DNA of 64,000 nucleotides from Pontiella desulfatans. GTDB taxonomy: Bacteria > Verrucomicrobiota > Kiritimatiellia > Kiritimatiellales > Pontiellaceae. The stretch lies in NCBI RefSeq assembly GCF_900890425.1, contig NZ_CAAHFG010000004.1:912330-976329 (forward strand), given 5' to 3'. Within the stretch, counting starts at the first letter, position 1. Each line of letters starts with the position of its first letter. The notes under the pieces are model-generated. The model was not told where the DNA came from and searched no databases. It saw only the letters and a list, made by a program, of their open reading frames with translations. Position numbers and translations under genes: made by a program. Below are positions 35,622-63,861 of this stretch, one piece after another.

Positions 35622-35747
35622 AGCATTTCACGAATGAAATGCCGCAACCTGATGGAGCGACCGGTTCCACCCGGTCTTCCGTTCGAACGGGTTCAGTCGA
35701 GGTGGAACTCGACCCTCCATTACGGCATCTCAATTGTTCAAGGCTCT
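35620..35747. repeat. Large palindromic element between the hypothetical gene and a sulfatase
   Basis: A ~90-nt imperfect palindrome (35639-35728) has arms beginning ATGCCG and ending CGGCAT, inner CGGTTCCACC / GGTGGAACTCG pairing, and CCGTTCGAACGG at its centre. AGAGC (35620-35624) and GCTCT (35743-35747) bound it, plus a GCATTTC/GAAATGC hairpin at the left. The right end supplies the stop codon region of the sulfatase at 35746. It could be a MITE/REP element or a bidirectional terminator. Confidence 0.65.
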
Positions 35748-38882: not shown

Positions 38883-40376
38883 TTATTCCCCCAGGGTTGT
38901 TGCATGGGTTTTACGCAGCTGCAGGTAGCGGCTGAACATGGCGTCGACGCGCGGCTTGTATTCGGGATTCAGAACCAGGTTTTCCAAGCTCTCCTCGAAA
39001 AGGTTGTCCTTCAGGTTGTAGAGCGCAACCGGTTCCAGGGCCGCCAGCATGGCTTCCGCGTTGAACTTGAAATCCTTCACCGGGGCCTTCACCTTCATGA
39101 TCAACTTCCACTCCGCATCCCGGATGGCGAGGGACGGGCCGCCGGCCGCCTGGTGCATCAGGTTGGCATGGCGCTCCTTCACCTCCTGCCCCAGGAACAC
39201 CGGCAGCAGGTTCATCGAGTCCATCACCAGTGAACGGTCGATCGGCTGCCCGGCTAGCGTGGCGATCGTCGCGACGGTGTCGTGAGAGATGATCGGCTCG
39301 TCGGAAACGGAGCCCGGTTTGATCTTGCCCGGCCAGACGGCAATGAACGGAACGCGGTGCCCGCCTTCCATGATCGAACCCTTGCTACCGTTCAGTCCGT
39401 TGCTCGTGTCGTGTCCGGCCGCCTTCATATCCTTGTCCCAGGAAAGGCCGCCGTTGTCGGAGGTGAAGATGAACAGCGTGTTGTCATAGACGCCGGCCTC
39501 CTTCAGCGCCCGCACCAGCATGCCGACCTGGACATCGAGTTCCTTGATCATGTCGCCATGCTTGCCCGGCGTGGTTCCCTTGATCTTGACGCCGTCCAGC
39601 TCGACGGGCGGTGCATGTGGAATATGCACGGCCTGCGAGCAGTAGTAGATGAAAAACGGCTTGGCGGCGTGTTTCGCAATATAGTCCACGCCCTTCTTTG
39701 CGAGGATCGGGCCGGCCTGCGCCGGATCCCAGTTGGAGTCGGCAATGCCACGGCGGTCGAGGTGTTTCTTCGAGGTGGAATAGTGCGTCTGGTCGGCGTC
39801 GATTTCCTTGATCACCGAATCCTCGCCCAGTTTCATCCAAACCTGGTTTTCGTAGAATGCGAATGGAATGTTCTGAACGCCCTCGGGTAGTTCGCAGGCA
39901 TAGTCGAAGCCAAAGTGCAGCGCGCCTCCATCCTGTTTCTCCCAGTTAACCGGCGTGGTCAGCCAGGAACTGCCGAGGCCCCATTTCCCGAAGAATGCCG
40001 TCTGGTAGCCGCCTGCTTTTGCGATCCGCGCGCTGGTCGTCCACCCGCCCGTATCGATGCCCGAGTCCGCTTCCGGCTTCCACACGCCGAACGCGCTGTG
40101 GTTGCGGTAGGAATAGTTGCCCGTCAGCATCGAAAAGCGCGTGGGGGCGCAGAGCGACGCCGGGGAGTGGGCATCGGTGAAGCGCATCCCTTCGGCAATC
40201 AACCGGTCGATGTTCGGCGTTTCCACAAGCACGTTTGAGCCGCGCTCGCGGACATTGAAGCTGATATCGCCCAGGCCAATGTCGTCGGCCATCACGAGCA
40301 CCACGTTCGGTTTGCCGGCCGCCCATGCCGCGGTTGCCATCATCAATGCGGTAACTGCCACAGCTGTTTTCATCAT
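38883..40376 (-). CDS. Secreted S1-family arylsulfatase
   Basis: The 497-residue protein has a signal peptide (1-20, ending AWA). The metal site VMADDIGLGD, the formylglycine Cys76 in SLCAPTRFSMLTG, GKWGLGSSW and FIFTSDNGG are those of type I sulfatases. The CAPTR form still fits CxPxR. It is first in a three-gene operon; AAGGAG lies upstream, and a weaker copy of the shared motif (site D) lies about 60-80 nt upstream. Confidence 0.92.
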   Translation of the reverse strand: MMKTAVAVTALMMATAAWAAGKPNVVLVMADDIGLGDISFNVRERGSNVLVETPNIDRLIAEGMRFTDAHSPASLCAPTRFSMLTGNYSYRNHSAFGVWKPEADSGIDTGGWTTSARIAKAGGYQTAFFGKWGLGSSWLTTPVNWEKQDGGALHFGFDYACELPEGVQNIPFAFYENQVWMKLGEDSVIKEIDADQTHYSTSKKHLDRRGIADSNWDPAQAGPILAKKGVDYIAKHAAKPFFIYYCSQAVHIPHAPPVELDGVKIKGTTPGKHGDMIKELDVQVGMLVRALKEAGVYDNTLFIFTSDNGGLSWDKDMKAAGHDTSNGLNGSKGSIMEGGHRVPFIAVWPGKIKPGSVSDEPIISHDTVATIATLAGQPIDRSLVMDSMNLLPVFLGQEVKERHANLMHQAAGGPSLAIRDAEWKLIMKVKAPVKDFKFNAEAMLAALEPVALYNLKDNLFEESLENLVLNPEYKPRVDAMFSRYLQLRKTHATTLGE

Positions 40377-40732: not shown

Positions 40733-43525
40733 CTATTTCCCGGTGAAGGGCTGGGTGAGTTCGATGTCGATGAAGCGGAAGAGGCCACAGTCGATGCCGA
40801 CCTTTATGGCCGACGGATCGGAGAGGTCGAAGGTTTCCTTGCTGAGCAGGTCGGTCATTTTCGTTGCTTTGATATTCTGGAGTTTGACGGTGGCGGTTTT
40901 GGCGGAGGGGTCGATGTAGCCGCCGTCGATGAGCGTCAGGCGCAGGTGGGTGGGGGAGGTCTGCGCACAGACCCACGCCACGTCGCCGGAGACCGTGACC
41001 GGCAGATGCTTGGCACCGTCGATGATGTCGGTTTCGATGGTCTTGTAATATTCATCGGCTTTGAAGGTCTGGGTGCCGTCGGCGGAGATATAGTTGCGCC
41101 CATCGGTGATGTATTCCTTCAGGATGCCCTTGTACATCGGGTGGAGGTGGTCGGCCAGTTTGCCGCGCGGGGCGGACGGGTCGGCAAACGTGCCGGTCTG
41201 CGGCGGGGTCATCATGACGATGCCGTTGGGGTAGGGCGGCAGATAGTTGAGGCGGCGGTCGTTCACGCCGGCGGCATAGCGCGAGAAGTCCCACTCCGTA
41301 TTCGGCGCGCCCGGCCAGCTTCCGTTGAGGCGGCCGAAGACCATCGGGTTGGCATCCTCTTCTTGCTGGTTGAAGAAGGTCATCCACTTCACGTTGTTGC
41401 CGGTGTCGAGGAAGCGCTCGTCCGGCGTGGTCATGCCGAGGTGCACCGGCGAGAGGCTGACGAGCTCGCTGCGGCCGGGGACATAGAGCGCGCCCTTGGC
41501 GATCAGTTCCCAGAGGATGGACATGTAGTCCTGGTCGACCGGGAAGTTGTTGAGGTAGGTGGCGCCGCAGGAAATGTTGTAGATCATCTGGCGCAGGAAA
41601 TGGTTGGGCAACTCCTGGTGGGAATGCTGGCGCGTGCGGTCGAAGCTGGTGTTGTCGCGCGCGCAGCGGGCACCCCATTGATCGACCGATCCGGCGGCCC
41701 AGATGCCCAGGCGCGCGGCCACGCTCTGCTCCATGGTTTTGTCGGTGGTTTCCTCCAACGCCGGAACAAACACATCGGCATATTCGCCGGAGATGAGCTT
41801 CGACCACATCGGCAGGTAGACGATGCCGTTCCAGAAACCATGCTTGGTCCGGATGAAGATGTTGCAGTTCTTGCCCCGTGCATGTTGCGCCATCGGATAG
41901 AAATGGTTTTCCAGCACCCAGGCAAAGTGCTCGTCGTGCTGTTCGAGCTCGGGATAGATGGTGACGACCTTCTTGCCCTTTTCCCGGGCCATGTCGAAAA
42001 TCTTTTTCTGGGTCTGAAGGCTGGTCTGGAAGGGATCGTTGCCGTGGCCGCCCCAGTAGGCGATGCCCGGCGCCCCGTCGAAGTTTGCGGCGATCTCCTT
42101 GACCATCCCATCGCTGGAGAGGATGTATTTTTTGCGACGGTCGCGCTTCTTCCGGTAGACTTCGTCGAAGGAGGAGCGATCGACGTCTTCCACGCGCGGA
42201 AGGTGTTTGCCGTTCATGAAGACCGGGCTTGTGTGGTTGGCTTCGATTTCGGCAATGGCCGGGTGGTCCCGGTTGTCGGTCATGAAGGTGACGGGCGGGA
42301 CGTCCTTTTCCCATGAAGGTTTCTTGAACGACTGGAGTTGTTCGCGGGCTTCGGCGGTCTTGTTGATGATGGCGGTGATGTTGCCGGGTGGTTGGAGGGC
42401 GGCATATTCGTGTTTCCAGTCTGGGTCGTCGAGGTTGATGATGTGGATGCAGCTGCCGCCGCTCTGGGCGCTGGCGAGCACGATGAGGTTCTTGCCCTCG
42501 GGCTTCCACATGTCGTTGTATGAAAAACGGTTTGCGAGCACCTCGGCCTCTTTGGCATCCACGTCATCCAGATCGGTGGGCAGCAGGAGGATCTTGGAGC
42601 CGAACAGAACGAAGAGCATGGCGTTCTTTCCTTCCTTGACCAGCTCGGGCTGGACCACGCGATAGCCGAAGCCATCGACCTTGTTCTTGAGCTGCTGGAT
42701 GCCGAATTGTTTCTGCCGGGCTTCATCGATGTCGAAGGTGCCGACATACGCGTCCTGGATCATGGACGTGGCGCCCGTCAAGACCTCGTCGTTGCCGTCG
42801 CCGTCCAGGTCGGCGGTCCGGAGCTCGCCGACCCCGCCGGAGAGCTTCGTGACCTTGTTGAACGGTTTTTCCTCCAACGGTTCGAAGCAGTAGAGATGGC
42901 CGGCGGCGCCGGTGCTCCAGATGGCTGCGTGCACCGCGATGGCGTCGCCGCCCGTTTTGCGCCGGATCGGGCGGATGAAGTTGGCGACGTGCTTGTTGGC
43001 TTCCGGCAGGATCTTGTCGGACTTGCCCCAGGGCTTCTCCTTCGAATAGAGCTTGGATTCGATGGCCTTGACCAGCGAGCCCTCCGGCGAGAGGTAGTAT
43101 ATGTTCATGTCGTAGCTGCCGCAGACGATGTAGGGCACGCCGCCTTTGCGCACCACGCAGACGGCATTCATTGGCGCGTCGCTGGCCTTGAACCGCCAGA
43201 GCAGGTTGCCGTTGGCGTCCAGGCAATAGAGGTGGCCATCGGCGTTGGCGGCCAGGATTTCATCGGTCTTGTCGCCGGTGATGTCCGCGCACCACAGGTC
43301 GTGGTTCATGAAGCCGGAGAGTTCGTTTTTCCAGCCAACGGAACCTTTCGGCGAAACGGCCATGATGGTTCCATCGTAGTCGCTGGCGACCATGAAGGAG
43401 GCCCCGTTCTTCTGCGCCGTTCGCACCTTGCAGATCGTGTGGCCGGTTTCGATGCTCGTAATGGCGGAACCGAACGCCGAGGCGGCCATCAGCGCCGTGG
43501 TTAGAACAAGTGTCGTTTTCATCAT
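40733..43525 (-). CDS. Lambda-carrageenase-like (GH150-like) secreted enzyme
   Basis: The 930-residue protein has a signal peptide (about 1-20). A predicted beta-propeller occupies about 25-330, with blades such as SPKGSVGWKNELSGFMNHDLWCADITGDKTDEILAANADG, then LASAQSGGSCIHIIN. The C-terminal ~550 residues contain AYWGGHGNDPF, PNHFLRQMIYNISCG and PNTEWDFSRYAAG. Size and propeller-plus-unknown layout match lambda-carrageenase (GH150), which cleaves beta-1,4 links in lambda-carrageenan. The family assignment is from memory of the family, without a search. The start at 43525 (M-M-K) has AGAGGA. Its paralogue lies directly upstream. Confidence 0.6.
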   Translation of the reverse strand: MMKTTLVLTTALMAASAFGSAITSIETGHTICKVRTAQKNGASFMVASDYDGTIMAVSPKGSVGWKNELSGFMNHDLWCADITGDKTDEILAANADGHLYCLDANGNLLWRFKASDAPMNAVCVVRKGGVPYIVCGSYDMNIYYLSPEGSLVKAIESKLYSKEKPWGKSDKILPEANKHVANFIRPIRRKTGGDAIAVHAAIWSTGAAGHLYCFEPLEEKPFNKVTKLSGGVGELRTADLDGDGNDEVLTGATSMIQDAYVGTFDIDEARQKQFGIQQLKNKVDGFGYRVVQPELVKEGKNAMLFVLFGSKILLLPTDLDDVDAKEAEVLANRFSYNDMWKPEGKNLIVLASAQSGGSCIHIINLDDPDWKHEYAALQPPGNITAIINKTAEAREQLQSFKKPSWEKDVPPVTFMTDNRDHPAIAEIEANHTSPVFMNGKHLPRVEDVDRSSFDEVYRKKRDRRKKYILSSDGMVKEIAANFDGAPGIAYWGGHGNDPFQTSLQTQKKIFDMAREKGKKVVTIYPELEQHDEHFAWVLENHFYPMAQHARGKNCNIFIRTKHGFWNGIVYLPMWSKLISGEYADVFVPALEETTDKTMEQSVAARLGIWAAGSVDQWGARCARDNTSFDRTRQHSHQELPNHFLRQMIYNISCGATYLNNFPVDQDYMSILWELIAKGALYVPGRSELVSLSPVHLGMTTPDERFLDTGNNVKWMTFFNQQEEDANPMVFGRLNGSWPGAPNTEWDFSRYAAGVNDRRLNYLPPYPNGIVMMTPPQTGTFADPSAPRGKLADHLHPMYKGILKEYITDGRNYISADGTQTFKADEYYKTIETDIIDGAKHLPVTVSGDVAWVCAQTSPTHLRLTLIDGGYIDPSAKTATVKLQNIKATKMTDLLSKETFDLSDPSAIKVGIDCGLFRFIDIELTQPFTGK

Positions 43526-43578
43526 CAATCCTCTCTTCATGGGTGTTGCCGAATAAACGCAATGCGATCGGCGGTTTG

Positions 43579-43605
43579 GACGCAAGCGGCATGCACGCTT
43601 GCGTC
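43579..43605. repeat. Inverted repeat and motif-like site in the leader of the GH150-like gene
   Basis: GACGCAAGC (43579-43587) and GCTTGCGTC (43597-43605) are perfect complements around GGCATGCAC, 54 nt upstream of the ATG. Next to it on the minus strand, GGAATGGCGCAT (about 43613-43624) recalls the start of the shared motif. It could be an operator or a hairpin at the end of the upstream gene. Confidence 0.5.
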
Positions 43606-43649
43606 TTGTTTATGCGCCATTCCGCCATGGGGTGGAGCGCTGTTCCCCG

Positions 43650-46600
43650 CTAGGGCTGGCTAATGTTCAGCCGGAAGAAGAGGTGGTCGTTGGTGCCGCC
43701 ATGGACCTGGCGTTCGGCTTCGGTGTAGGCCGGGTTGGTGGTTGCCGAACTGGAGGTTGAGTCCCACGTGCTGCTCCAGGTTCCCGACACGAGGTTGTCC
43801 GTCCATTCCGCGAGATATTCGATGCCGGGGTTGGTGTGGCCGACCTGCCAGTTGTAATAGCTGACGACGTTTCCGATGCCGTATTCCATGTACGGAACCT
43901 TTGATGCCACTTCCGGGTTGGTGGCATCGCCGCCGAGTGCATATTCCTTCAAGTCGGATTCGCCGTCGTGGTCGTAGTCGGCGCCGGAATTGCCGGAAAG
44001 GCCTTTCTCGCTGGCGTGCTCGCCCCAGCCGTTTTCCGGGAAGAAGGGTTCGCTCAACCGGATGTCGATGAAGCGCCAGAGTCCGAGCGGCACGTCGATC
44101 GAAGCGGTTCCGCCGGCGGTGCCGTAGGTGGTGCCGTCGAGCACATCCTTCACCAGAACGGGGTCGACGGTGTTGAACGTAACCGTGGCCATGCGCGCCT
44201 TGGGGTTGAGGTAGCCGCTATCCACCACGGTCAGGCGCAGGTTGGTGGGGGAGGTCTGGGCGCACACCCAGGCGACTTCGCCGGCCACCGTTAGCGGGAG
44301 CTGCGAGGCGCTGGCGGCGATGGCGTTGGCGACCGTGGTGTAGTAGGTGTCGGCCGCGTTGGTGGTGGTGCCGTCGCTGGAGATATAGTGGCGTCCGTTG
44401 CTGATGTATTCCTGCATGATGTTCTTGTACATCGGATGCAGCTTGTTGCGCATCGCGCCGCGCGCGGCGTTGGTGTTGGCGAACACGCCTTCCTGCACCG
44501 GGGTAACGAGCACCGTTCCGTTCGGGTAGGGCGGGATGAAGTTCTGGCGGCGATCCTTCACGCCGGCGGCATAGCGCGAGAAGTCCCATTCGGTGTTGGG
44601 CGCGGCCGGCCAGGTGCCGTTCATGCGGCTGAAGACAAACGGGTTGTCCTGCTCGAACGCCTGGTCGTAGAAGGTGATCCATTTGTTGTTTTCGCCGTCG
44701 TCGAGATAGTGCTCGTCCGGCTCGTGCATGCCGAGGTGCACCGGGGAGAAGCTCACGATTTCCTCGCGCTTCGGGACATAGAGCGCGCCCGTTGCCACCA
44801 GTTTCCAGGCGAGGCTCTGGTAGTCGGCATCGACGTAGGTGACGTTCAGGACGCTCGCACCACCGGCCAGGTTGTAGACCATGTTGCGCAGGAAATGGTT
44901 CGGCAGGCGCTGGTAGGAGTGCTGGCGCTGGCGGTCGAAGCTTGGGTTGTCGCGCGAGCAGCGCATCCCCCAGCTGTCGAGCGCGCCGCTCGCCCACAGG
45001 CCCTGGCGGCCAACGATGCTCAACTCGCAGGTTTTATCGGTGGTCTCCTCCAGGCCGGAGGTGAACACTTCGGCATACTCGCCGTTGCGCATGCGCTCCC
45101 AGGCCGGCAGATAGACCGCGCCCTGCCAGAAAATGTTTTTGTTGCGGATGAAAATGTGTGCGTTGTTGGTGCGCGCATATTCCGCCAGCGGATAGAAGCG
45201 GTCTTCCATCACCAGCTCGAAGGCCTCCGACGAGCCGTTCATTTCCGGCCAGATCAGGACGGTCTGTTCGCCGTTCTGCAGATCGATGATCCCTTTGAGG
45301 GTGTCCAGGCTGTAGTAGTAGGGATCGTTGCCGTGTCCGCCCCACATGGCGATCCCTTCGCCGCCATCGTCCTCCGCCGCAACCTGGCCGAGGATCCACG
45401 ACTCCGTTTTCACATAGTTCCTGCGACTGTCGCGCTTGTCGCGGTAGGTGGGGTTGTCCGCCAGCACGGTGTCGCGGTTCCAGTCGGCGGGGTCCTGGGC
45501 ATAGCTGTCCCAATAATAGTTCATGAACACGGGGGTGTCGGAATAGCCTTTGATGTCGAGCGCCTCGGGGTGCGTCGGATCTGCGCCGGTCAGGATGACC
45601 TCGATCGGATCGCGTTCCCAGGCTGGCTTGCCGAAGCTTTCCAGGTCGGTCCGGACCTTCGCCGTGTTTGCAAGGATGGCTGCGATCTTGCCCGGCGGTT
45701 CCAGGTTTTCGTAGTCGGTCTGCCAGTCGGGATGCTGCGGATCGATGATGTGGATGCAGCTGCCGCCGCTTTGCGCGCTGGCCAACAGGATCTTGCCGCT
45801 GCCCGGATCCTGCCACAGGTCGTTGAAGGCATAGGAGCATTGCAGGTTGGAGGCGGAGCTGACCAGGTTGCTGTCGCCGCTGGGTGTGGCGATGAGCAGC
45901 GTCGCGCCGCACATGATGAAATAGTTATCGGTGCCCCCGTCCGGGAACAGGACGGCCTGGGTGACGCGGTAGCCATTGTCCTGCTTGCTGCCGGTCAGCA
46001 CCCAGCGGCGCTCTTCGCCGGTGGCGGGATCCAGGTGCATGATCTGGTCATCGTTCAGGCTGGAGGAGCCCATGAGGATTTCGTGGTTCCCGTCGCCGTC
46101 CTCGTCGACAATCTTCAGGTCGCCGTACACCTTCGCGCCGCCGATGTTGTTGGTGGAGTAGGGCAGGTCGGCGAGCGGTTCGAACAGGTAGATTTCGCCG
46201 TTGGATTGCAGGGCGCTCATGGAACCGTGCACCACCAGTTTTTCGGAGCCATCGCTCTGAGGCAGCGGGCGCAGGAAGGTGGCGTTGTGCAGGCGGTCCG
46301 GCGGCGCGTTGTCGCCCCAGGTGTTGGCGATGGAATAGGTCTGGGAATAGATCGACTTCACCTGCGCGCCGGTGGCATCGAGATAATGGATGTATTTGTC
46401 GTAGGCGCCGCAGACGACGTAGGGCGTCCCGTTCGACTTGACGCTGCAGACGGTATACATGGGCGGCAGGTGGCCGCCGGCGTTGGGCGCATAGTGCCAA
46501 AGCAGGGTGCCGTCGATGCCGAGGCAGTAGACCGTGCCGTCGGCATTGGCGACCAGGATTTCGTCGGAGCCGTTGCCCGTTAAATCGCTGCACCAAAGGT

Positions 46601-47447
46601 CGTGGTTCATGTAGCCGGAAAGGTGGTTCGTCCACAGCGCGGTGCCATCCCATTCCATGCCAAGAACCGCGCCCTCGTAGGTGCTGCCGATAATCCGCGT
46701 GTGGGTCCCGTCGATCGCCGTGCGCACCTTCTGGATCGTCCAACCGGTTTCGTGGCTCGTCAGCGGTTGCGGCGGTTCGACGGGCGAACCGGGGGCGGTC
46801 AGCGATACGTTGTCGATCACGCCGCCGCTGCCGGAATCGGTCGCCAGCCGGAGGCCGATGTAGTCGTAGTCGGAGACGTCGCCGAGGCCGGCGGCATAGC
46901 CGGACAAATCAAGGTCGGTCGAGAAATGCCGCACGGTTCCGGCGGTTCCGGTGAATGTTGCCCTCGACGTGTTGATTTCGCCGGTGCTGTAGGTGCCATC
47001 CAGCAGGTCGGCATATCCGGCCGCGCCGTCGAGGTTGCTGATTTTCCACGACTCGTAGTTGATGCCGATGAAAAAGGTTCCGTTGGTGGGTGTTCCCGTG
47101 TTTTTCCAGCCGATCAGCTGGTAGGTCAGGTCGAGGTCCGTGCCGGTGTCGCCGGCCGGGGCCGTCCAGTCGAACGCAAGGCGGAGCGTGTCGCCCGCTT
47201 GCGTCGTGACCGCATTCACCTGGGCCAGGCCGCCCTGCGGGCGCGTGGCGGTGTTGGAGGCAACGCCTCCGCCGATGTCCCAGGTTCCCTTGTGGTCCCA
47301 GCCCGCATCGAGTTCGGAAAACACGGTTGCATTGTTGCCGGTGTCCGCGCCGGTTGCGCCGGTCGAGAAAGACCCGTCGTTCAAAAGCTCGGCCTGGATG
47401 CCGACGGCACCCGCCACGATGCCTAAAGCCAGGTTCCAACATTTCAT
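43650..47447 (-). CDS. Large GH150-like paralogue with N-terminal and C-terminal accessory domains
   Basis: The 1265-residue protein has a signal peptide (about 1-18) and a novel N-terminal beta-sandwich (about 20-220, ending DNVSLTAP). The GH150-like body (about 230-1130) shares HLSGYMNHDLWCSDLTGNGSDEILVANADG, GGSCIHIID, MWGGHGNDPYYY, PNHFLRNMVYNL and PNTEWDFSRYAAGV with its neighbour. The C-terminal ~125 residues hold a DYDHDGESDLKEYALGG calcium-type loop and end FFRLNISQP, shared with the 58500 protein. It probably cleaves the same or a related sulfated galactan and may be surface attached. It lies 60 nt downstream of GH110. Confidence 0.6.
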   Translation of the reverse strand: MKCWNLALGIVAGAVGIQAELLNDGSFSTGATGADTGNNATVFSELDAGWDHKGTWDIGGGVASNTATRPQGGLAQVNAVTTQAGDTLRLAFDWTAPAGDTGTDLDLTYQLIGWKNTGTPTNGTFFIGINYESWKISNLDGAAGYADLLDGTYSTGEINTSRATFTGTAGTVRHFSTDLDLSGYAAGLGDVSDYDYIGLRLATDSGSGGVIDNVSLTAPGSPVEPPQPLTSHETGWTIQKVRTAIDGTHTRIIGSTYEGAVLGMEWDGTALWTNHLSGYMNHDLWCSDLTGNGSDEILVANADGTVYCLGIDGTLLWHYAPNAGGHLPPMYTVCSVKSNGTPYVVCGAYDKYIHYLDATGAQVKSIYSQTYSIANTWGDNAPPDRLHNATFLRPLPQSDGSEKLVVHGSMSALQSNGEIYLFEPLADLPYSTNNIGGAKVYGDLKIVDEDGDGNHEILMGSSSLNDDQIMHLDPATGEERRWVLTGSKQDNGYRVTQAVLFPDGGTDNYFIMCGATLLIATPSGDSNLVSSASNLQCSYAFNDLWQDPGSGKILLASAQSGGSCIHIIDPQHPDWQTDYENLEPPGKIAAILANTAKVRTDLESFGKPAWERDPIEVILTGADPTHPEALDIKGYSDTPVFMNYYWDSYAQDPADWNRDTVLADNPTYRDKRDSRRNYVKTESWILGQVAAEDDGGEGIAMWGGHGNDPYYYSLDTLKGIIDLQNGEQTVLIWPEMNGSSEAFELVMEDRFYPLAEYARTNNAHIFIRNKNIFWQGAVYLPAWERMRNGEYAEVFTSGLEETTDKTCELSIVGRQGLWASGALDSWGMRCSRDNPSFDRQRQHSYQRLPNHFLRNMVYNLAGGASVLNVTYVDADYQSLAWKLVATGALYVPKREEIVSFSPVHLGMHEPDEHYLDDGENNKWITFYDQAFEQDNPFVFSRMNGTWPAAPNTEWDFSRYAAGVKDRRQNFIPPYPNGTVLVTPVQEGVFANTNAARGAMRNKLHPMYKNIMQEYISNGRHYISSDGTTTNAADTYYTTVANAIAASASQLPLTVAGEVAWVCAQTSPTNLRLTVVDSGYLNPKARMATVTFNTVDPVLVKDVLDGTTYGTAGGTASIDVPLGLWRFIDIRLSEPFFPENGWGEHASEKGLSGNSGADYDHDGESDLKEYALGGDATNPEVASKVPYMEYGIGNVVSYYNWQVGHTNPGIEYLAEWTDNLVSGTWSSTWDSTSSSATTNPAYTEAERQVHGGTNDHLFFRLNISQP

Positions 47448-47507: not shown

Positions 47508-49340
47508 TCAGTTTTTCGCCGCCTTCATTCCCTCGGCGGCCTGGAACCCGGTGTTCTTTTTGATCGTTACGCTTTCGGTATCCACCGTCTGCGTGATGCG
47601 CAGCGGGGCAAAGCCTTCCGCGTCGTTCTTGACGATGCTGACGTTGCTGCAGTAGTCGAGCTTGATGGCTTCGCCTTCCTCGATGGCGGGGTAGTCGGTG
47701 CTGAAGACCATTTTGTTGCCGGAGATGGTGAGGCCTTCGCAGGAGCGCGCCTCCACCATGTGGCCGTTGAAGCTGCGGATGGTGTTGTCGATGAACTTAA
47801 TGTTGCGGTGGTAGCGGCCTTCGCCCATGTGCTGGGTGTCGTTGAACAGCGGGGAGGCGAGCAGGGGATAGCGGTTGTCGCACGCAAAGCCAATGTTGAC
47901 GAACTCGTTGTTGCGGATCACCACGTCTTCCACCGCGCCGGACTCGTACCACTTGTTGTTGTCGCCCTCGATCAGGATGCCGTGCATCTGCGAGGAGAGG
48001 TGGTTGTCTTCGATCAGCACCTTGCCCTTGGTCGTGACCAGGATGCTGCGCGCGCGGTTTTCGCGGACGATGTTCTTGCGGAAAACCAGATCCGGATACC
48101 ACGTCAGGTTTTCGACCGAAAGGGGCACATTCGGCATGACCTCGGGAACCTCCTTGAGCGTCAGGACAAAACGGTGTTCGTTGAGGATGCGGATGTCTTC
48201 AATCGTGGTTTCGAACAAGGGCAGGACGGTCAACCGCGACATCAGGCAAACCTTGTCGCCGGGTTCGCCGAAGGTCAGGCCCCATTGCTGGAAGTGGCTG
48301 ATGTTGCAGAGGAGTTCCTTGTTGCCCAGGTATTCCGCCACCGGCACATACGCGCCGTGCACGTTGATGGCGTCGTCGAGCATGTGCTCGAACACGCAGT
48401 TTTCGACCTTGATCAGGCCCTTGCAACCGATGTAGTGCGTGGCGTCGGCGCGGGTGGAAACGATGCGCTCCTCGGTGGAGGTGACCTTCATGCCGTCGAG
48501 CGTAATGTTTTCGGTGCGCTCGACGATGAGCCCCATGCCGCCGGCATCGTGGACGACGACGTTCTCGATCTTCAGGTCTTTCGAGTTGGTCACGTGGATC
48601 GCCGGGCAAAGGCGGCTGGTCGGATGGACGCCGTGGGCCACGAGGATGGTGCCGACCGGCGGCGGCTCCTTCTTGAAGCCCCCCTCGATCTTGATCCGGT
48701 TCTTGCCGGGCTTGGAAACCTTGATCGGCTTCCAGCTGTTGAGGGCGTAGCGGTCGGTGTCGTAGATGGGCGCCCGGGTTTCCGGATCCCAGACCATGTT
48801 GGAACCAATCGGGTCTTCCTGCCCCATGCGGTCGAACAGCAGCTGCCCGTTCTTGATTTTGTGGGGGTAGCGTTTTTCATCCAGTTCGAACACGGCGGCT
48901 TTCTTTTCCACATCACGCTCGATGCATTTGAGTTCGGCGTGGAAGGACTGTGCCCAATCGATGGAAAAATTCCTGAGCGTTATTCCTTCAACACGTTCGA
49001 TGGTGAACGGAACCACGCGGCCGTGCATCATGAACATCGAGCCGTTGCCCTCGATGGTGATGTTCCGGTGGTTGAACAGTGGAAAGACCATGCGCTTGAG
49101 GCCGTTGTCGTGGTTGGCCACGGCGCGGTGCATTTCGAGCGCGTTTTCGGCATGGAACTCGTAGTCCCCTTTCGGGAAGCTCAGCGTGACGCCCGGTTCG
49201 TTTTCGATGCTCTTGATTAAACTGTTCAGGGCATACGTGCCGTCTTGCCCGGGTACAATGCCGTGTTCGGCCACGTTGACGATGCGGCCTTCCGCCACGA
49301 GTGCCCCCAAGGCAATGGTGCAAGTTATCAGTGTTTTCAT
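47508..49340 (-). CDS. Secreted GH110 exo-alpha-1,3-galactosidase
   Basis: The 610-residue protein has a signal peptide (1-17). A right-handed parallel beta-helix carries many short repeats (NITIEGNGSMF, LKIENVVVHDAGGMGLIVER, ITLDGMKV, KVENCVFEHMLDDAINVHG). Asp322-Asp323 in LDDAINVHG are the hallmark of GH110. GH110 enzymes remove terminal alpha-1,3-galactose with inversion, and a marine member has been linked to lambda-carrageenan metabolism. It is followed by the GH150-like genes; site F lies about 100 nt upstream. Confidence 0.88.
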   Translation of the reverse strand: MKTLITCTIALGALVAEGRIVNVAEHGIVPGQDGTYALNSLIKSIENEPGVTLSFPKGDYEFHAENALEMHRAVANHDNGLKRMVFPLFNHRNITIEGNGSMFMMHGRVVPFTIERVEGITLRNFSIDWAQSFHAELKCIERDVEKKAAVFELDEKRYPHKIKNGQLLFDRMGQEDPIGSNMVWDPETRAPIYDTDRYALNSWKPIKVSKPGKNRIKIEGGFKKEPPPVGTILVAHGVHPTSRLCPAIHVTNSKDLKIENVVVHDAGGMGLIVERTENITLDGMKVTSTEERIVSTRADATHYIGCKGLIKVENCVFEHMLDDAINVHGAYVPVAEYLGNKELLCNISHFQQWGLTFGEPGDKVCLMSRLTVLPLFETTIEDIRILNEHRFVLTLKEVPEVMPNVPLSVENLTWYPDLVFRKNIVRENRARSILVTTKGKVLIEDNHLSSQMHGILIEGDNNKWYESGAVEDVVIRNNEFVNIGFACDNRYPLLASPLFNDTQHMGEGRYHRNIKFIDNTIRSFNGHMVEARSCEGLTISGNKMVFSTDYPAIEEGEAIKLDYCSNVSIVKNDAEGFAPLRITQTVDTESVTIKKNTGFQAAEGMKAAKN

Positions 49341-50961: not shown

Positions 50962-51099
50962 GAAGGCTCCATTTATGGGATGGGACGGTGGCGGGAAACC
51001 ATAGTGGACAGAGTACACAAACCATCCGGCGCAAACCCGCCAGCGGCAGGGGGGGGTGCCGATGCCGTTTGCCGGTGTGGCGGGTCGGTTGGCGGAATC

Positions 51100-51127
51100 G
51101 CGCATTTCTTTTGCGGGAACGTATATT
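51100..51127 (+). promoter_or_regulatory. Shared motif (site G) and -10 box for the 51270 gene
   Basis: GCGCATTTCTTTTGCGGG (51100-51117), then 4 nt, then TATATT (51122-51127). This is the cleanest copy of the motif. The leader to the 51270 ATG is long (about 135 nt) and ends in GAGGAG. The 50962-51099 part of the gap carries only a weak minus-strand motif (about 51014-51040). Confidence 0.6.
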
Positions 51128-53717: not shown

Positions 53718-53764
53718 GGCGATGGAGGGGCGGGTGCCACCCCGTCCGCCGTGCTTCGAACACG

Positions 53765-53790
53765 AACCCCGTCCCCGTGGCGGGGTTTTT
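53765..53790 (+). terminator. Intrinsic terminator after the 51270 gene
   Basis: AACCCCG / CGGGGTT with a 9-nt loop, followed by TTTTT. A GC-rich inverted stretch (53726-53748, GGGGCGGGT...ACCCCGTCC) precedes it. Confidence 0.75.
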
Positions 53791-53812
53791 CGTTTGGGCG
53801 CATGGCAAGATG

Positions 53813-53842
53813 GCGCATGTTTTTTGCCGCAATGGGTATGGC
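53813..53842 (+). promoter_or_regulatory. Shared motif (site I) for the second GH27 gene
   Basis: GCGCATGTTTTTTGCCGC (53813-53830), with a -10-like TATGGC at about 53837. It supports the downstream start at 53885, because a start at 53858 would leave almost no leader. Confidence 0.5.
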
Positions 53843-55525: not shown

Positions 55526-57067
55526 ATGAAGATGTTTCGTTCACTGGCACTGTTTCCCTTGTTTATTGGCTTGGCGGTCTCTGCGGCGCAGAGGCCCAAC
55601 GTGGTCATCATCTATGGCGACGACGTTGGCTTTGCCGACATCGGCATCAACGGCTCGGTCATGATTCCAACGCCGAACATCGACCAGCTGGCCCTGGAAG
55701 GGCTCAACTTTACCGACGGCCACTGCTCGGCGGCCACCTGCACGCCGTCGCGCTTCTCGATGCTCACCGGCCTCCTGGCCTTCCGCCACAACGCGCGCGT
55801 GCTGCCGCCCGACGCCCCGCTGCTCATCCCGACCGACAAGCTGACGCTGCCCAAGCTGTTCAAGCAGGCCGGCTACCACACCGCCGTCATCGGCAAGTGG
55901 CACCTCGGCATCGGAACCCCGGGCGTCCAGACCGACTGGAACGGCGACGTCAAGCCCGGGCCGCTCGAGATCGGCTTCGACTATTCCTTCCTGCTGCCCT
56001 CCACCAACGACCGCGTCCCGTGCGTCTACCTCCGCAACCACCGCGTTGTCAACCACGACCCCAACGATCCGATTCACGTCGGCAAAACGCTCAACGATGT
56101 TCAGAAACCCGGCAGCACGCAATATCCCGATGGCCGAACCAACCGCGAGTCCATGACCGTCTACCAGAGCACCCACGGGCACAACGACAGCGTCATCAAC
56201 GGCATCGGCCGCATCGGCTACATGTCCGGCGGAAAGGCCGCGCTATGGGACGAGCAAACCATCTCCGATGTCTTTGTCGACGAAGCCCACGCCTACATCA
56301 AGGAGCACAGGAAGGAGCCCTTTTTCCTCTACTTCGCCTCGCAGGATATCCACGTTCCGCGCTATCCGCACCCGCGCTTCCAGGGCGCCACCCAGCTCGG
56401 CCACCGCGGCGACGCCATGGTGGCGTTCGACTGGACGGTCGGCCAGATCATGCGCGCGCTCAAGAAATACGACCTCGAGCAAAACACCATCGTCATCTTT
56501 TCCTCCGACAACGGCCCCGTCTACGACGACGGCTATGCCGACGGCACCACGGTGCTCTGCTCGCAGGAGGAATCCGACCGCGGGCACGATGCCTCCAGCG
56601 TCTGGCGCGGCGGAAAATACCAGATCTACGAAGGCGGCACCCGCGTACCGTTCATCATCCGCTGGCCCGCCAAGATCAAGCCCGGCCTCTCCCCGGCCAT
56701 GGTAAACCAGGTCGACTTCATGGCCTCCTTCGCCCACCTGCTCGGCGTCGAGCTGCCCGAAAACGAAGCCATCGACAGCCGCAATATCCTCCCCGCCTTC
56801 CTCGGGGAGACCAAGGTTGGCCACCAATACATGGTCGAGGAATCCTTTGGCCTCGCCCTGCGCGACCGCCACTGGAAATATATCGAACCCGTCCAGCCCA
56901 AATGGCCCCAGGGCCGCGACCCCATCGAGGAATCGCTGCACGACCTCAACGCCGATCCCGCCGAGCAAGTCAACTTTGCCCCGCTCCATCCCGAAAAGGC
57001 CGAAAACATGAAAGCCATCCTCAATAAACTACGCACCGGAACCGGCGCCCGCGGAACGATTCAGTAG
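55526..57067 (+). CDS. Secreted S1-family arylsulfatase
   Basis: The 513-residue protein has a signal peptide (1-20). The metal site IIYGDDVGFAD, the formylglycine Cys72 in AATCTPSRFSMLTG, VIGKWHLGIG and IFSSDNGPVYDDG (metal and active-site residues) are those of arylsulfatase A-like enzymes. The C-terminus is short. It is probably cotranscribed with the GH27 gene and ends at a terminator. Confidence 0.92.
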   Translation: MKMFRSLALFPLFIGLAVSAAQRPNVVIIYGDDVGFADIGINGSVMIPTPNIDQLALEGLNFTDGHCSAATCTPSRFSMLTGLLAFRHNARVLPPDAPLLIPTDKLTLPKLFKQAGYHTAVIGKWHLGIGTPGVQTDWNGDVKPGPLEIGFDYSFLLPSTNDRVPCVYLRNHRVVNHDPNDPIHVGKTLNDVQKPGSTQYPDGRTNRESMTVYQSTHGHNDSVINGIGRIGYMSGGKAALWDEQTISDVFVDEAHAYIKEHRKEPFFLYFASQDIHVPRYPHPRFQGATQLGHRGDAMVAFDWTVGQIMRALKKYDLEQNTIVIFSSDNGPVYDDGYADGTTVLCSQEESDRGHDASSVWRGGKYQIYEGGTRVPFIIRWPAKIKPGLSPAMVNQVDFMASFAHLLGVELPENEAIDSRNILPAFLGETKVGHQYMVEESFGLALRDRHWKYIEPVQPKWPQGRDPIEESLHDLNADPAEQVNFAPLHPEKAENMKAILNKLRTGTGARGTIQ

Positions 57068-58446: not shown

Positions 58447-58499
58447 TCTTGCCGGTTTCATGTTTGATTAAACCGATCCGGCCATGGGCGGCCGGTGAG

Positions 58500-61400
58500 A
58501 TGATGGGCTATATGAAGGCAATTTTGGTTCTACCCTTTTCGTGTTTGTTCGCAACCGTGTCGGCGATGGCCTGGACGGGGGGGACGAATGAGGCGGATTG
58601 GATCCAGCTGACGAACGAGGTTGCGGCGAGCCGCGCCCAACTCACGAACCTGATGGGCCAGGCCGATGCGGCGGGGTTGAACACGGATTATGCCTATGTG
58701 TCGCAGGTGGTCATCGACCGGTTCCAAATCTACGCCACGTATGACTATGAGCATCCGGAGGAGGTCCATGAGGCGTTCACGAATGTCTGGTGGAACAACA
58801 AGGTTCCCGACCCGGACTTTCCGATCAACCTGCCGTTCGATGAGATGCAGTCGTGCCTGGAGGTTTCGAGCAATGCGATTGCCGAGCTTCAGGCGCAGCT
58901 GGCCACGAACCGGGTGCTGCAGGCGCCGGTTGATTTCACGACGGGAACCATGGCCTTCGGGGCGGGTTCCTGCCTGCGCAACGGCGAACCGGTTTTCCCG
59001 AGCGACTTCACGTGGATGCCGGACGATGAAGATCTGCTGGTGGCCTTTGGCCGCATGGGCGGGACCTACTATGCGCTCTCCGACATGTCGGACTCCAACA
59101 CGGTCAAGGCCAGCGCCATCAGCAGCGATTCCGAGAGTCTGGCCGGGCAGACCGCGCGCAACCTGGCGTTCGGCCAATATTTCATCGGGCACAAGGCGGC
59201 GGGCTGGATGAAGGAGGAGTATCCGGAAATCGAGGATGGAGGGCGGAACTTCGTGACCTACGATACCGACAGCCCGCTCATCCGGGCATGGTTCACCCAA
59301 CTCTTCGGGCAGTATATCCCGCCCGTTTGCGCGGCGCAGGGCGACCAGCCGCGCATGCACCTGCTGGCGAACGAACCAAACTTTGCCACCCGCGAGGGGG
59401 GCTGGCTGGCCGAGAACGGGGTGTCGGCCAATACGATGGACGGGTATGAGGAGTGGATCTCCGAAAAATATGCGACGATCTCCAACCTGAACGCGACCTA
59501 TGGAACCTCCTATGCCGACTTCCATGCGGCGCGGAACGGCATGACCCTGCCGATTCCCGTTTCGTTGCAAGGCCGTCCGGCCTGGTACGACTGGTGCCGC
59601 TTCAACATGGACCGGGTCAACGATTTCTTCCAGTTCCTCAAGGACGGAGCCCAGGGCAACGATCCGGACGGTGCGCCGGCAACCATCAAGATTTTGGGCG
59701 GCCAGCTGGCCAATTCGTGGCGCGACGACGGGATGGACATGGAATTTCTCGCGAATCTGATGGATGTGACGGGCGCGGATCTGCACGTCGTTCCTGCGGG
59801 CGCGACGGTCATCCAAAGCAAGCTGGACATGGAGTGGGCCACCGACTATGCGCTCGACTGGCGCGAGCAGTCGATGATGCTCGATTTCTATAAATCGCTC
59901 CATCCAGACAAGCCCTACTACGATTCCGAATGGCACGGCTTCGCCACCGGGAAGTGGCGCCATTTTTCGATGGATCGCGACTATGTGCGCTCTTCGCTAT
60001 GGCTCGGTTTCTCCCACGGCATGAACGGTATCCAGTCCTGGGTGTGGGGACGGAAGAACACCGGTAGTTTCCTCGATGTGAATTCCGACTTCATCGGCGA
60101 TATCCTGACGCAACCGACCGCGCTCGATGCCTACGGCCGGGTGATGAAGGAACTCAATGCCCACGCGGGTTCCGTGACGGCGCTAGCGAAGCAGGAGCGC
60201 CACTTCATGGTCTATTATTGCGGGGAGGCGGCGATTCAGGATCTTACCTATGTGGACGGAATCGAAGAGGTCTACGAGGCGTTGAAATTGCTCAACCTAC
60301 GGGTCGGCTTCGCAACGCCATCCACCATCGGTTCGCTGGCCACCAGCCAGGCCGTGGTTGTTCCGCCCACCGCATTCATCTCGGATGCGAGCCACGATGC
60401 CCTGGTTGCCTTTGAGCAGTCCGGGGGCCATGTGGTGCTGGTGAACGGCGCCTCGGCCAGCTTCGGCACGAACGAGCTGGGCTTTGCCGTCTCGGGCAAC
60501 ACGAACCTGGCGCCCTATGCCGAGGTGGCCTTTGGCGATCCTTCCGCCATGGCCGACGATCTCGGTGCCGCGCTCGCGCCACTCAAGCCGGCCGTTCCGG
60601 TTTTGGCAACCGTTACGGGTGGCGCATCGCAACCGGCCTACGGCGTTTTCGTGAACCAGGTACAGGAGCCCGGAAGCGGGGAAACCACGCTGGTGCTGAT
60701 CAACGTCCACAAGGAGCCGCGCACCGTTGCCTTGTCGCTCGCTTCCGGAATGGGGGCGGACTACCGCAACCTGGTGACCGGCCAGCTGGTTCCGGACACG
60801 CATGCGTTGCAGCCCTACGACGTGCTTTTGCTCAGGACGGAAAATTCCGCGCCCCGGGTTGCCGGAACGATCGTGCAATGGGGCGAGCCCGGGGGGGATG
60901 ACGGCATCGTCACCAATGGCCAGGATTTTTCCAACCTCTACAACACCTACAACGTGGGCAACGTGGCGAGCCCGCTCCAGGGGCCGGACTACTATCCCGT
61001 CAGCGCCGGCCGCTCACCGGTTTTCAACCATGCCGCCAATAAGGCCTACAACGTGAAGCGGATCGGCGACGGCGGAGCGGAGGGCGACTACATCAACACC
61101 GCAAAGAACGATGCCGACTATTCCGCCATGGTGGTTTGGGAAAACTTCATCGCCAACCATGGCACGCTGGAAAGCCTGGAGATCGAGACCCGCGTCAGCA
61201 ATGCCACCGACACGCCATCCCAGTTCCGCTGGTTGATCCAAAAAGGCGGAACGGCCTGGTATGCCAGTGCCCAGATCGACACGACCGGCTCCTATGTATC
61301 CTACTCCAATAATGCGCCGGAAACGGTGGACTGGTACCACTTCACGCCTTTCGTTGGAGGAACGGCCTCCGTTGGAGCCAAGGCCAGCATTGATCTTTCG

Positions 61401-61892
61401 GACATCTCGGCGGTCGGCTACCATGCCACGTTCCAGCAACCCGGCACGGTGGCCTACCGGGCGAGCCAGACGCGCTACTTCAAGGCCACCGCAAGTTCCG
61501 CTGTTGCTGCATCCGGGTGGGACGGTTTTGTTTCAAGGTATGGACTGAGCGGGGTTTCAACCCATGACCAGGATGGGGATGGGAAGTCGGATCTCTACGA
61601 ATATGCCCTCGGAGGGAATCCGACCAACCCGGCCGACCAGGGGACGGCGCCGTTCATCGAATACCATCCCGGCAACACGGTGGGCTGTTTCAATCTCGAA
61701 GTCGATAGCCCCGTTCCCGGCATCACCTATTGGCCGGAATGGACGGACAACCTCGTGACCGGTTCGTGGAGCAGCGCCTGGAACCTGGAGACCAACCACC
61801 CGGCCATTCCGGGCTATACCCAGGCCGAGCGCCGGCTCGATGGCGGCACCAACAACCATCTTTTTTTCCGGTTGTCCATTACCCAGCCGTGA
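58500..61892 (+). CDS. Secreted GH42-like (clan GH-A) beta-galactosidase-type enzyme with accessory modules
   Basis: The 1130-residue protein has a signal peptide (about 1-24). A TIM-barrel region (about 140-540) resembles GH42: acid/base Glu292 in LLANEPNF and nucleophile Glu477 in YYDSEWHG. A GH42-type trimerisation-like domain (about 565-700) and a short beta domain (to ~780) follow, then one WG-type module (789-998) shared with the 51270 protein. A C-terminal domain (1005-1130) has a DQDGDGKSDLYEYALGG loop and ends FFRLSITQP. A marine carrageenan-active relative (GH167-like) is possible. The start at 58500 follows GGTGAG. Confidence 0.7.
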   Translation: MMGYMKAILVLPFSCLFATVSAMAWTGGTNEADWIQLTNEVAASRAQLTNLMGQADAAGLNTDYAYVSQVVIDRFQIYATYDYEHPEEVHEAFTNVWWNNKVPDPDFPINLPFDEMQSCLEVSSNAIAELQAQLATNRVLQAPVDFTTGTMAFGAGSCLRNGEPVFPSDFTWMPDDEDLLVAFGRMGGTYYALSDMSDSNTVKASAISSDSESLAGQTARNLAFGQYFIGHKAAGWMKEEYPEIEDGGRNFVTYDTDSPLIRAWFTQLFGQYIPPVCAAQGDQPRMHLLANEPNFATREGGWLAENGVSANTMDGYEEWISEKYATISNLNATYGTSYADFHAARNGMTLPIPVSLQGRPAWYDWCRFNMDRVNDFFQFLKDGAQGNDPDGAPATIKILGGQLANSWRDDGMDMEFLANLMDVTGADLHVVPAGATVIQSKLDMEWATDYALDWREQSMMLDFYKSLHPDKPYYDSEWHGFATGKWRHFSMDRDYVRSSLWLGFSHGMNGIQSWVWGRKNTGSFLDVNSDFIGDILTQPTALDAYGRVMKELNAHAGSVTALAKQERHFMVYYCGEAAIQDLTYVDGIEEVYEALKLLNLRVGFATPSTIGSLATSQAVVVPPTAFISDASHDALVAFEQSGGHVVLVNGASASFGTNELGFAVSGNTNLAPYAEVAFGDPSAMADDLGAALAPLKPAVPVLATVTGGASQPAYGVFVNQVQEPGSGETTLVLINVHKEPRTVALSLASGMGADYRNLVTGQLVPDTHALQPYDVLLLRTENSAPRVAGTIVQWGEPGGDDGIVTNGQDFSNLYNTYNVGNVASPLQGPDYYPVSAGRSPVFNHAANKAYNVKRIGDGGAEGDYINTAKNDADYSAMVVWENFIANHGTLESLEIETRVSNATDTPSQFRWLIQKGGTAWYASAQIDTTGSYVSYSNNAPETVDWYHFTPFVGGTASVGAKASIDLSDISAVGYHATFQQPGTVAYRASQTRYFKATASSAVAASGWDGFVSRYGLSGVSTHDQDGDGKSDLYEYALGGNPTNPADQGTAPFIEYHPGNTVGCFNLEVDSPVPGITYWPEWTDNLVTGSWSSAWNLETNHPAIPGYTQAERRLDGGTNNHLFFRLSITQP

Positions 61893-62064: not shown

Positions 62065-63861
62065 ATGAAAAAGGATTTATCTCTGGTTTGGATCGTTGTG
62101 GCCATGCTGGCGCCACTGGCGGCCAGCGCGTTGCAGGTGGTGGAAATCAAGCCGGGCGAGGGCGACATGACGCCCGTCGTTCGCGAGGCGATTGAACAAG
62201 CGACCGATGCGGAAGTGAAGCTGGTGTTTGCGAAAGGGAAATATTTTTTCCGGCCAGACCATACCAAACAAAAATATTGCACCATCACCAACCACGACAA
62301 CGGGCTCAAGAACATCGCTTTCCTGTTCGATGGCTTCAAGTCGGTGGAGATTGAGGGCCATGGTTCCGAGTTTATTTTCCATGGGCAGATGTTGCCGTTC
62401 CTCTTCGAAAACTGCGGGAAGGTGACCGCGAAGAACATGGTGATCGATTGGGATATCCCGTTCTGCTTCCAGGGCGAGGTTGTGGCGGTTAACGAGGCCG
62501 AGGGCTGGCGCGATATCAAACCGGCCACCCAGGGGTTCAACTGGTCGGTGAAAAACGGCCATCTGGTCTATCCGGACATCGATGGCTTTTCCTATGCGTC
62601 CGTTGGCAGCACGCTGGCGTTCGACCCGGAGACCAAGGAGGTCTCCCATGGCGCGTGGGACTTCACCAGCCAGCCGACCGAGGTTGAAGAACGCGGGGAC
62701 GGCATCCTGCGTTTCCACGAAAAGCTGAAGCATTGGCCCAAGGTTGGGCAGATCCTCAACTCCAAGGGGAAGATGAACCGCTATGCCCCGGCGTTCCATG
62801 GCAAGTCCTCCAGCAACCTGACGTTCGATGGCATCGTGATCCACCATTGCCTAGGCATGGGCTTCCTGCTCGAGCGCTGCGACACCGCCACCCTTTCCAA
62901 CGGCGGCATCCATGTGCGCGAAGGCTCCGACCGCGTCGTGTCCATCATTGCCGATGGAACCCATTTCGCGAATTGCAAAGGCGACATCCTGGTTGAAAAC
63001 ATGCGCTTCAAGGGCATGCTCGACGATAGCACCAACGTGCACGGAACCTATGTTGCGGTCGATGGCGTCCTCGACGAAAAGACCGTCCGCATTCAGCTCA
63101 TGCACTTCCAGCAGCTCGGCTTCGAGTTTGCGGGGGTGGGCGACGAAATCTGGTTCATCCACCAGCCCAACCCAACCCGCGGCGCCGTGAACACGGTCGA
63201 AGGCGTGAAGGTCGTCAACGACCGCTTCATCGAGTTGACCTTCAAGAACCCGGTTCCGGAAAACCTGGTGAAAGGCGATGTGCTCGAAAACAAAACCTGG
63301 AACCCGAAGTTCACCATGCGGGGCAACAGCTTCGAAAAGCACCGCGCCCGCAATGTCGTCATCAAGACGCCCTTGCCGATCGTGATCGAAGACAACGACT
63401 TTTCCTCCCACATGTCGGCTGTGTTCCTGCGCGGCGAAACCTTCTACTGGTTCGAGTCCGGCAACGTCGAGGACGTGCTCATCGCGAACAACCGTTTCAA
63501 GGATTGCGCATCGAGCGGCATGGAGCACGCGGTCGTGCTCGTCACGCCCAGGCTTGGGAAAACCTTCGATGCCACCGTCCCGTTCGATAAAAACATCCGC
63601 GTCATCAACAATACCATCGAGACGTTCGATAACCGCATCCTATGGGCCGACCGGGTGGATGGCCTGCTCTTCAAGGACAACACCATCAAGCAGACCCGCT
63701 CCTACGATCCCCAGTGGAAGGATGCCCACCTGTTCGACTTCACCCATTGCCGGAACGTCCGGTTGATCGGCAACACCTACATCGGTGACCACCATAAAAC
63801 CGTGCTCGCCGACGAGGCCTCGAAAAAAACGCTGAAGATCAAAGGCAACAAGGGATTTTAG
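62065..63861 (+). CDS. Secreted GH110 exo-alpha-1,3-galactosidase, second copy
   Basis: The 598-residue protein has a signal peptide (1-22). A beta-helix with GH110 signatures follows: NHDNGLKNIAFLFDGFKSVEIEGHGSEFIFHG, MRFKGMLDDSTNVHGTYV with Asp320-Asp321, and VIEDNDFSSHMSAVFL. It shares its layout with the 47508 protein but is clearly diverged, so the two may act on different linkages or sulfation states. Only a weak form of the shared motif (about 61990-62005) lies upstream. Confidence 0.88.
   Translation: MKKDLSLVWIVVAMLAPLAASALQVVEIKPGEGDMTPVVREAIEQATDAEVKLVFAKGKYFFRPDHTKQKYCTITNHDNGLKNIAFLFDGFKSVEIEGHGSEFIFHGQMLPFLFENCGKVTAKNMVIDWDIPFCFQGEVVAVNEAEGWRDIKPATQGFNWSVKNGHLVYPDIDGFSYASVGSTLAFDPETKEVSHGAWDFTSQPTEVEERGDGILRFHEKLKHWPKVGQILNSKGKMNRYAPAFHGKSSSNLTFDGIVIHHCLGMGFLLERCDTATLSNGGIHVREGSDRVVSIIADGTHFANCKGDILVENMRFKGMLDDSTNVHGTYVAVDGVLDEKTVRIQLMHFQQLGFEFAGVGDEIWFIHQPNPTRGAVNTVEGVKVVNDRFIELTFKNPVPENLVKGDVLENKTWNPKFTMRGNSFEKHRARNVVIKTPLPIVIEDNDFSSHMSAVFLRGETFYWFESGNVEDVLIANNRFKDCASSGMEHAVVLVTPRLGKTFDATVPFDKNIRVINNTIETFDNRILWADRVDGLLFKDNTIKQTRSYDPQWKDAHLFDFTHCRNVRLIGNTYIGDHHKTVLADEASKKTLKIKGNKGF

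Follow-up and report, generated by a model that had tools for sequence, protein, structure and literature searches.

Among the closest described systems for the genes considered here is the lambda-carrageenan pathway of P. distincta U2A, which comprises two GH150s, two GH110s, a GH2 and sulfatases of the S1_8 and S1_15 types, with S1_8 and GH2 being central to it (PMC12549532). In the same account the two GH150s give slightly different product ladders, GH150B (26% identical to CglA) also releases incompletely sulfated products, and a conserved patch of the family was inferred from models (PMC12549532). A further member, OUC-CglA of Maribacter vaceletii, is reported as an assayed lambda-carrageenase (PMC11202985), and cultured members of Pontiella are reported to encode hundreds of sulfatases (521 and 480; PMC7356697). 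Here we describe two adjacent GH150 genes, termed A and B, in a 64,000-nucleotide stretch (the window) of the 8.66-Mb genome of Pontiella desulfatans, coded G000, at positions 912330-976329 of its contig C4; genomes, contigs and loci are denoted by G, C and L numbers. As in the P. distincta U2A locus, two GH150s, GH110s and S1_15-like sulfatases occur together. The two genes are members of two old, separate sub-lineages, and only gene B carries a C-terminal module (CTD) that recurs throughout the genome.

Family and domain layout of genes A and B

The predicted products of both genes contain the propeller, middle and C-terminal CGLA domains, all in order and far above the curated cut-offs (Pfam E 1e-31 to 1e-193; Table 1), confirming that two GH150-like genes lie side by side and that the family call made from raw sequence in the first-pass annotation was right. 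Most of the listed family-invariant charged and aromatic residues of gene A lie in the PF25290 middle domain. Whilst GH150A and GH150B of P. distincta are 99% and 26% identical to CglA, the window proteins are, judged by sequence, both of the CglA/GH150A type, with 47% mutual identity across 919 aligned residues. When the CglA branch was aligned (103 rows), 74 positions proved to be at least 99% invariant across the 101 rows other than A and B; A keeps 73 of these 74 and so does B, which argues that both would be active.

CglA of Pseudoalteromonas carrageenovora has the same three-domain core and, across its full length, shares 48% identity with A and 46% with B, a comparison made via a plasmid protein of 942 aa from strain KCTC 22325 that is taken to be CglA. 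Unlike B, this protein is core only, without N-terminal domain or CTD, and it is lipoprotein-like by a home-made rule that flags no Pontiellaceae GH150. The core fold is also common to OUC-CglA; the protein used for comparison, from locus L065 of M. vaceletii DSM 25230 and presumed to be OUC-CglA or a close copy, is 54% identical to A and 48% to B. It too is core only and adjoins a far, GH150B-like gene, whereas A adjoins a B-type gene. Lipoprotein anchoring of one partner was considered and rejected: by the same rule 6 of 127 GH150 entries are lipoprotein-like, and these come neither from Pontiellaceae nor from any of the 13 listed multi-copy loci. Some genes are counted more than once among the 127, and the rule passes over TFSC in the two L089 proteins.

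The two proteins differ in what flanks the core. Gene B has approximately 209 residues before the propeller and 130 after CGLA_C that are extra relative to gene A, which consists of a signal peptide and the core with no further domain; the contrast between a core-only and a decorated form drawn earlier therefore holds. The mechanical open reading frame (ORF) of gene A reaches a TTG at 43585 (950 aa) and further in-frame starts are present, but the start is most likely the ATG at 43525 (MMKTTLVLTT...), three bases past AGAGAGGA, and given this start the count of 930 residues is correct. A Sec-type signal peptide was recognized by eye in A (MMKTTLVLTTALMAASAFGSA) and no lipobox was found in this protein.

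No Pfam or NCBIfam match, and hence none to a carbohydrate-binding module (CBM) family, was obtained for the N-terminal domain of B. Its model is all-beta but of low confidence (mean predicted local distance difference test score, pLDDT, 52; 3 sequences), and CBM22 is among the best fold matches (E about 1e-3, TM-scores about 0.3–0.4, model weak). The extra domain announced earlier as an N-terminal beta-sandwich is therefore real, and that fold is likely only. For the CTD, a moderate model (pLDDT 65.5, 7 sequences) returned no PDB fold with E below 1; no structural claim rests on either model. A domain of the same N-terminal type was found in long GH150s of G083, G074, G080, G100 and G091 (in the latter a 1518-aa form), as well as on a PEP-CTERM protein, but not in the B-clade form of G091, in G081, in the second long form of G100 or in the distant long form of G074. 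Such patchy occurrence among long forms suggests that the domain is exchangeable. In Pontiella sulfatireligans a pectate-lyase-like protein encoded amid GH150 genes (L045, 10002-13097) carries both this N-terminal domain and the CTD, which suggests that both accessory domains are transferred jointly inside the locus.

Separate ancestry and recurrence of the pair

Trees of 114, 68 and 36 rows were built. An A clade comprises short forms from seven Pontiellaceae genomes together with one from a Lentisphaerae metagenome-assembled genome (MAG; L062) and has Shimodaira–Hasegawa-like approximate likelihood ratio (SH-aLRT) support of 99–100; a B clade comprises eight Pontiellaceae proteins including B (SH-aLRT 98–99); and sequences from other phyla fall between the two in these trees. 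Constraining the A and B clades together cost 151 log-likelihood units, with a p-value in the approximately unbiased test (p-AU) of 1e-5 (36 rows, LG+G4), the question having been posed by the finding itself and the exact 36 rows picked after the first tree. Backbone support was uneven, with 27 of 111 inner branches below 80 in the 114-row tree and 21 of 65 in the 68-row tree. Excluded from the trees were divergent class hits (G110, G026 C3), weak or partial ones (G065, G165, G073 C208, G000 C1 and C3, G026 C48, G091 C121), the split gene of L051, the partial second ORF of L129 and six named loci repeating genomes already included. A and B are thus two old, separate sub-lineages and not a fresh tandem copy. 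Separation of the clades and rejection of the joint constraint point either to an ancient divergence or to independent acquisition of the two, after which the genes came to lie together. The term paralogues, applied to the pair in the first-pass annotation, calls for caution: a recent local tandem duplication is ruled out by the trees.

Of 345 class genomes, 17 have a CGLA_M match, which exceeds the curated cut-off in 16, and both clades are represented in seven genomes. A- and B-clade genes are adjacent in G000 and G080, separated by one ORF in G083 and G074 (281 and 300 codons), and no more than approximately 8 kb apart in G091 and G100; in G081 they lie on separate contigs. In G100, which is P. 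sulfatireligans F21, the A-clade gene directly adjoins another long form lying outside the B clade, and in both G000 and G100 a GH110 gene directly precedes the B-clade gene. The intervening ORFs (L037 and L039, from G083 and G074) encode small, secreted-looking proteins with a PEP-CTERM-like tail (VPEPAT...RRRFMM). A GH150 gene of G083 (L051, 5184-7954) is split into two overlapping ORFs of 478 and 452 aa and appears broken.

Loci with several GH150s are common elsewhere, and a two-GH150 locus has already been published. At least two GH150 ORFs were found in 16 of 74 loci, 13 of these 16 being outside Pontiellaceae. Three Lutibacter loci have three GH150s each, their members falling in different deep clades, and in L065, L069 and L100 the second GH150 is of a far kind that groups with a third GH150 of G000. 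In the Bacteroidota multi-copy loci L064, L067, L075, L078, L080, L085, L106 and L118, one member has an N-terminal insertion of approximately 45 residues which, by eye, resembles the first strands of a CBM4-like domain.

The CTD was found on 11 of 23 Pontiellaceae rows of the CglA branch, comprising 7 of 8 in the B clade, none of 7 in the A clade and 4 of 8 others, a distribution that involves at least three changes of state on the tree. It was absent from all 80 full-length GH150s from outside Pontiellaceae, which were drawn from the best 80 of 143 confirmed genome stretches (72 distinct loci) and from two plasmids. Other C-terminal additions are present on four of the 80. Type IX secretion system (T9SS) sorting domains were found on GH150s of Neolewinella (L119) and a Bacteroidetes MAG (L121), both passing the NCBIfam cut-off and one the Pfam cut-off; a sub-threshold dockerin lies at the C-terminus of a Pseudocolwellia GH150 (L116), and an Ig domain at that of a GH150 from a Bacteroidales MAG (L122), where the contig end cuts the gene.

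The C-terminal module of gene B

Copies of the CTD usually have a DxDxDG loop, an E-[YF] pair and a GG-[ND]-P turn, with a Trp preceding the final strands and F-[IF]-R-L at the end; the predicted layout is helix followed by beta structure. With a profile built from 30 copies, at least 137 matches with E up to 1e-5 were obtained in the genome (150 of 366 candidates scored), a few of them partial or containing a stop. The module was detected in 212 of 332 class genomes (E up to 1e-5). At phylum level, 65 of 193 genomes have it (E up to 1e-6), of which 29 lie outside the class and have mostly weaker scores. In all of the 30 best-scoring loci among 103 from a first search it extends to the stop codon, the profile match ending within 6 residues of the stop in 25 and within 37 in all 30. 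For the first 20 of the 137 carriers, the start of the protein was more hydrophobic, and signal-peptide-like, than an internal control of the same ORF in every case, by a home-made rule that picks among up to 12 start codons and under which the weakest carrier (1.74) is about level with the highest control (1.76). Four of these 20 carriers are sulfatases, and others have CBMs, beta-helices or Ig-like domains. Taken together, these features suggest a role for the CTD in sorting or anchoring.

Known sorting systems were compared with the module. The T9SS type A sorting domain (TIGR04183) is likewise C-terminal on many exported proteins, and is the kind found on the two Bacteroidota GH150s, but there is no sequence match between it and the Pontiella module: neither TIGR04183 nor PF18962, the Por secretion tail, matched the CTD of gene B up to E 1, and T9SS sorting by family match is ruled out. 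An exosortase is present in the genome; TIGR02595 matched neither A nor B, and B has no PEP-CTERM tail. No C-terminal sorting module described for Kiritimatiellae, Kiritimatiellota or Verrucomicrobiota was found among the literature listings searched. We tentatively raise the idea, and regard it as rather less probable than its negation, that the CTD is an undescribed Verrucomicrobiota export and anchoring signal, present on well over 100 proteins of this genome and served by a non-type IX apparatus.

Alternatively, the CTD could be a calcium-stabilized structural or binding cap and no sorting signal at all, a serious possibility, if one we would not put first. The DxDxDG motif resembles a calcium loop, the helix-then-beta prediction is compatible with such a cap, and the sequence shows no sign of a transmembrane segment, a lipobox or an Arg-rich tail. 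However, the C-terminal position of the module in 30 of 30 loci checked, on unrelated secreted-looking proteins, is typical of targeting modules.

Neighbouring genes and a possible division of labour

The genes surrounding the pair are listed in Table 1. The nearest solved structures of the GH110 and S1_15-like neighbours carry names of the P. distincta lambda pathway, the organism of these entries being presumed. A 553-aa protein encoded at 37219-38880, between the S1_15-like and S1_30-like sulfatases, could be assigned to no Pfam or NCBIfam family and matches nothing meaningful in the PDB; inspection by eye suggests that it is possibly a propeller-type glycosidase. The ORF at 849-2528 appears to be a gene fusion, as it matches serine hydroxymethyltransferase as well as a ribose/galactose isomerase (RpiB/LacAB).

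Upstream of A, five of the seven genomes compared, G000 among them, share a similar stretch, and the intergenic inverted repeat (Table 1) lies within it; the repeat is perfect only in G000. This similarity suggests that gene A may have its own regulatory region. The gap folds no better than shuffled sequences (z -0.79) and a search allowing up to 3 mismatches found the hairpin motif at one genomic site; given an unexceptional fold and a single genomic motif, no regulon is claimed.

Table 1. Coordinates of the GH150 pair, its domains and neighbouring features in the window
Feature	Position	Strand	Remarks
Gene A	40733..43525	-	Putative core-only GH150 lambda-carrageenase, 930 aa
Gene A beta-propeller PF25292	42437..43396	-	Pfam E 4e-132
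Gene A middle domain PF25290	41075..42184	-	Pfam E 2.7e-193
Gene A C-terminal GH150-core domain PF25291	40760..40996	-	Pfam E 1e-35
Gene B	43650..47447	-	Putative decorated GH150 lambda-carrageenase, 1265 aa
Gene B N-terminal accessory domain	46764..47390	-	Residues 20-228; probably jelly-roll beta-sandwich
Gene B beta-propeller PF25292	45744..46694	-	Pfam E 6e-123
Gene B middle domain PF25290	44370..45485	-	Pfam E 4.4e-187
Gene B C-terminal GH150-core domain PF25291	44061..44291	-	Pfam E 1.2e-31
Gene B C-terminal module (CTD)	43650..44042	-	130 residues; DxDxDG loop, then predicted beta-rich part, FFRL end
CTD copies in window	43650-44042, 53358-53714, 61506-61892		In three genes
Inverted repeat	43579..43605	-	10 bp, perfect, 7-base loop; in 124-bp gap between B and A
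Melibiase-like genes	31508-33163, 53603-55465		
Sulfatases	33193-35070, 35746-37212		Both nearest S1_30A
Sulfatase	38883..40376	-	Nearest solved structures named S1_15A, S1_15B
GH110 alpha-1,3-galactosidase	47508..49340	-	Nearest solved structure named GH110A
Sulfatase	49558-51105		Nearest an arylsulfatase
Sulfatase	55526..57067	+	Nearest structure S1_15A (E 4e-143), near tie with GalNAc-6-O-sulfatase entries
GH42-like beta-galactosidase candidate	58449..61892	+	CTD 52% identical to that of gene B
Second GH110 (GLAA-B) gene	62065..63861	+	

With the family, the domain layout, the separate ancestry, the recurrence of the pair and the presence of the CTD on one partner only as its established parts, the explanation towards which we lean, on balance, is that A and B are two endo-acting CglA-type GH150s in a lambda-carrageenan cluster, B being placed by its CTD and A being soluble or released. 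Both enzymes would cut beta-1,4 bonds of lambda-carrageenan. Through its CTD, B would be exported and then retained on or close to the outer surface, or else sent to one particular compartment, and its N-terminal jelly-roll could hold the polysaccharide. Gene A, with a Sec-type signal only, would yield an enzyme soluble in the periplasm or released, acting on the polymer or on the products of B, and the oligosaccharides may be finished by the products of the nearby GH110, beta-galactosidase and sulfatase genes. That the CTD sets location is the least certain step. A surface-bound long form and a free short form, as proposed in the first-pass annotation, are plausible, the evidence being the occurrence of the CTD on B and not on A.

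A number of observations weigh against this explanation. The CTD matched no Pfam or NCBIfam family, those of known sorting domains included, and the earlier description of it as sorting-like is a reasonable conjecture. SprA, the T9SS core protein, gave no matches in the genome itself or in that of P. sulfatireligans, whilst a Lutibacter citreus control was positive. One B-clade protein (G074 C6) ends where the CTD starts in others and has neither extra domain, indicating that the B lineage can do without them, and 76 of the 80 GH150s from outside Pontiellaceae are core-sized (up to 1010 aa), indicating no general need of a GH150 for a tail. The N-terminal domain type varies between long forms and so is not tied to one function. 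With regard to the pathway, a scan of 27 window ORFs turned up no GH2 and the S1_8 name is absent from the solved structures listed for the five window sulfatases, so that the likeness to the P. distincta pathway is partial. Three of these five sulfatases are nearest to other types (S1_30A for two and an arylsulfatase for the third; Table 1), suggesting that steps past GH150 differ or finish elsewhere.

Both enzymes might instead reside at the same site and differ in the stretches of chain that they cut, according to sulfation or to hybrid and theta-like regions, with the extra domains of B merely binding substrate. Comparison of the 7 A-clade with the 8 B-clade rows gives 26 positions at which each clade has its own fixed residue, several of them beside family-invariant motifs, such as T versus Y three residues past HGNDP and GARCARDN versus GMRCSRDN. 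These differences are compatible with different subsites, but they are expected between any two old clades. The differing product ladders of the P. distincta pair provide a published precedent for the sulfation alternative put forward in the first-pass annotation, but that precedent concerns GH150A versus GH150B, whilst A and B are both CglA-type. A GH150B-like gene lies elsewhere in the genome: the third GH150 (G000:C5:265667-268324; L052 7389-10331) is 51% identical to P. carrageenovora RS20335, itself approximately 26% identical to CglA and neighboured by a beta-helix gene, an alpha-galactosidase, sulfatases and a GH2, and is probably of the GH150B type. It adjoins two GH43-like genes and sulfatases. 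With this gene on another contig, the known specificity split would be held there and any split between A and B would be a further, finer one. A shared site with divided specificity is possible but appears the poorer account. That GH150 genes simply gather in clusters for dosage or redundancy, without specialization, is unlikely, for although multi-copy loci are frequent (the 16 of 74 given above, and five GH150 matches in P. sulfatireligans), the neighbours here come from different sub-lineages with no near-identical copies and the A/B combination recurs in six genomes.

Both the enzyme family and the type of locus were known before, and the pair is a variant within them. What it adds is that a polysaccharide cluster can combine separate branches of one enzyme family, with a lineage-specific tail on one partner only. 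The most instructive part of the finding is the CTD itself, a very common module that is unnamed in the libraries searched here. If placement of B by the CTD is true, A and B represent a natural comparison, with tag and without tag, on one enzyme fold, and if the CTD is a targeting signal the GH150 pair would provide a clean system in which to test it.

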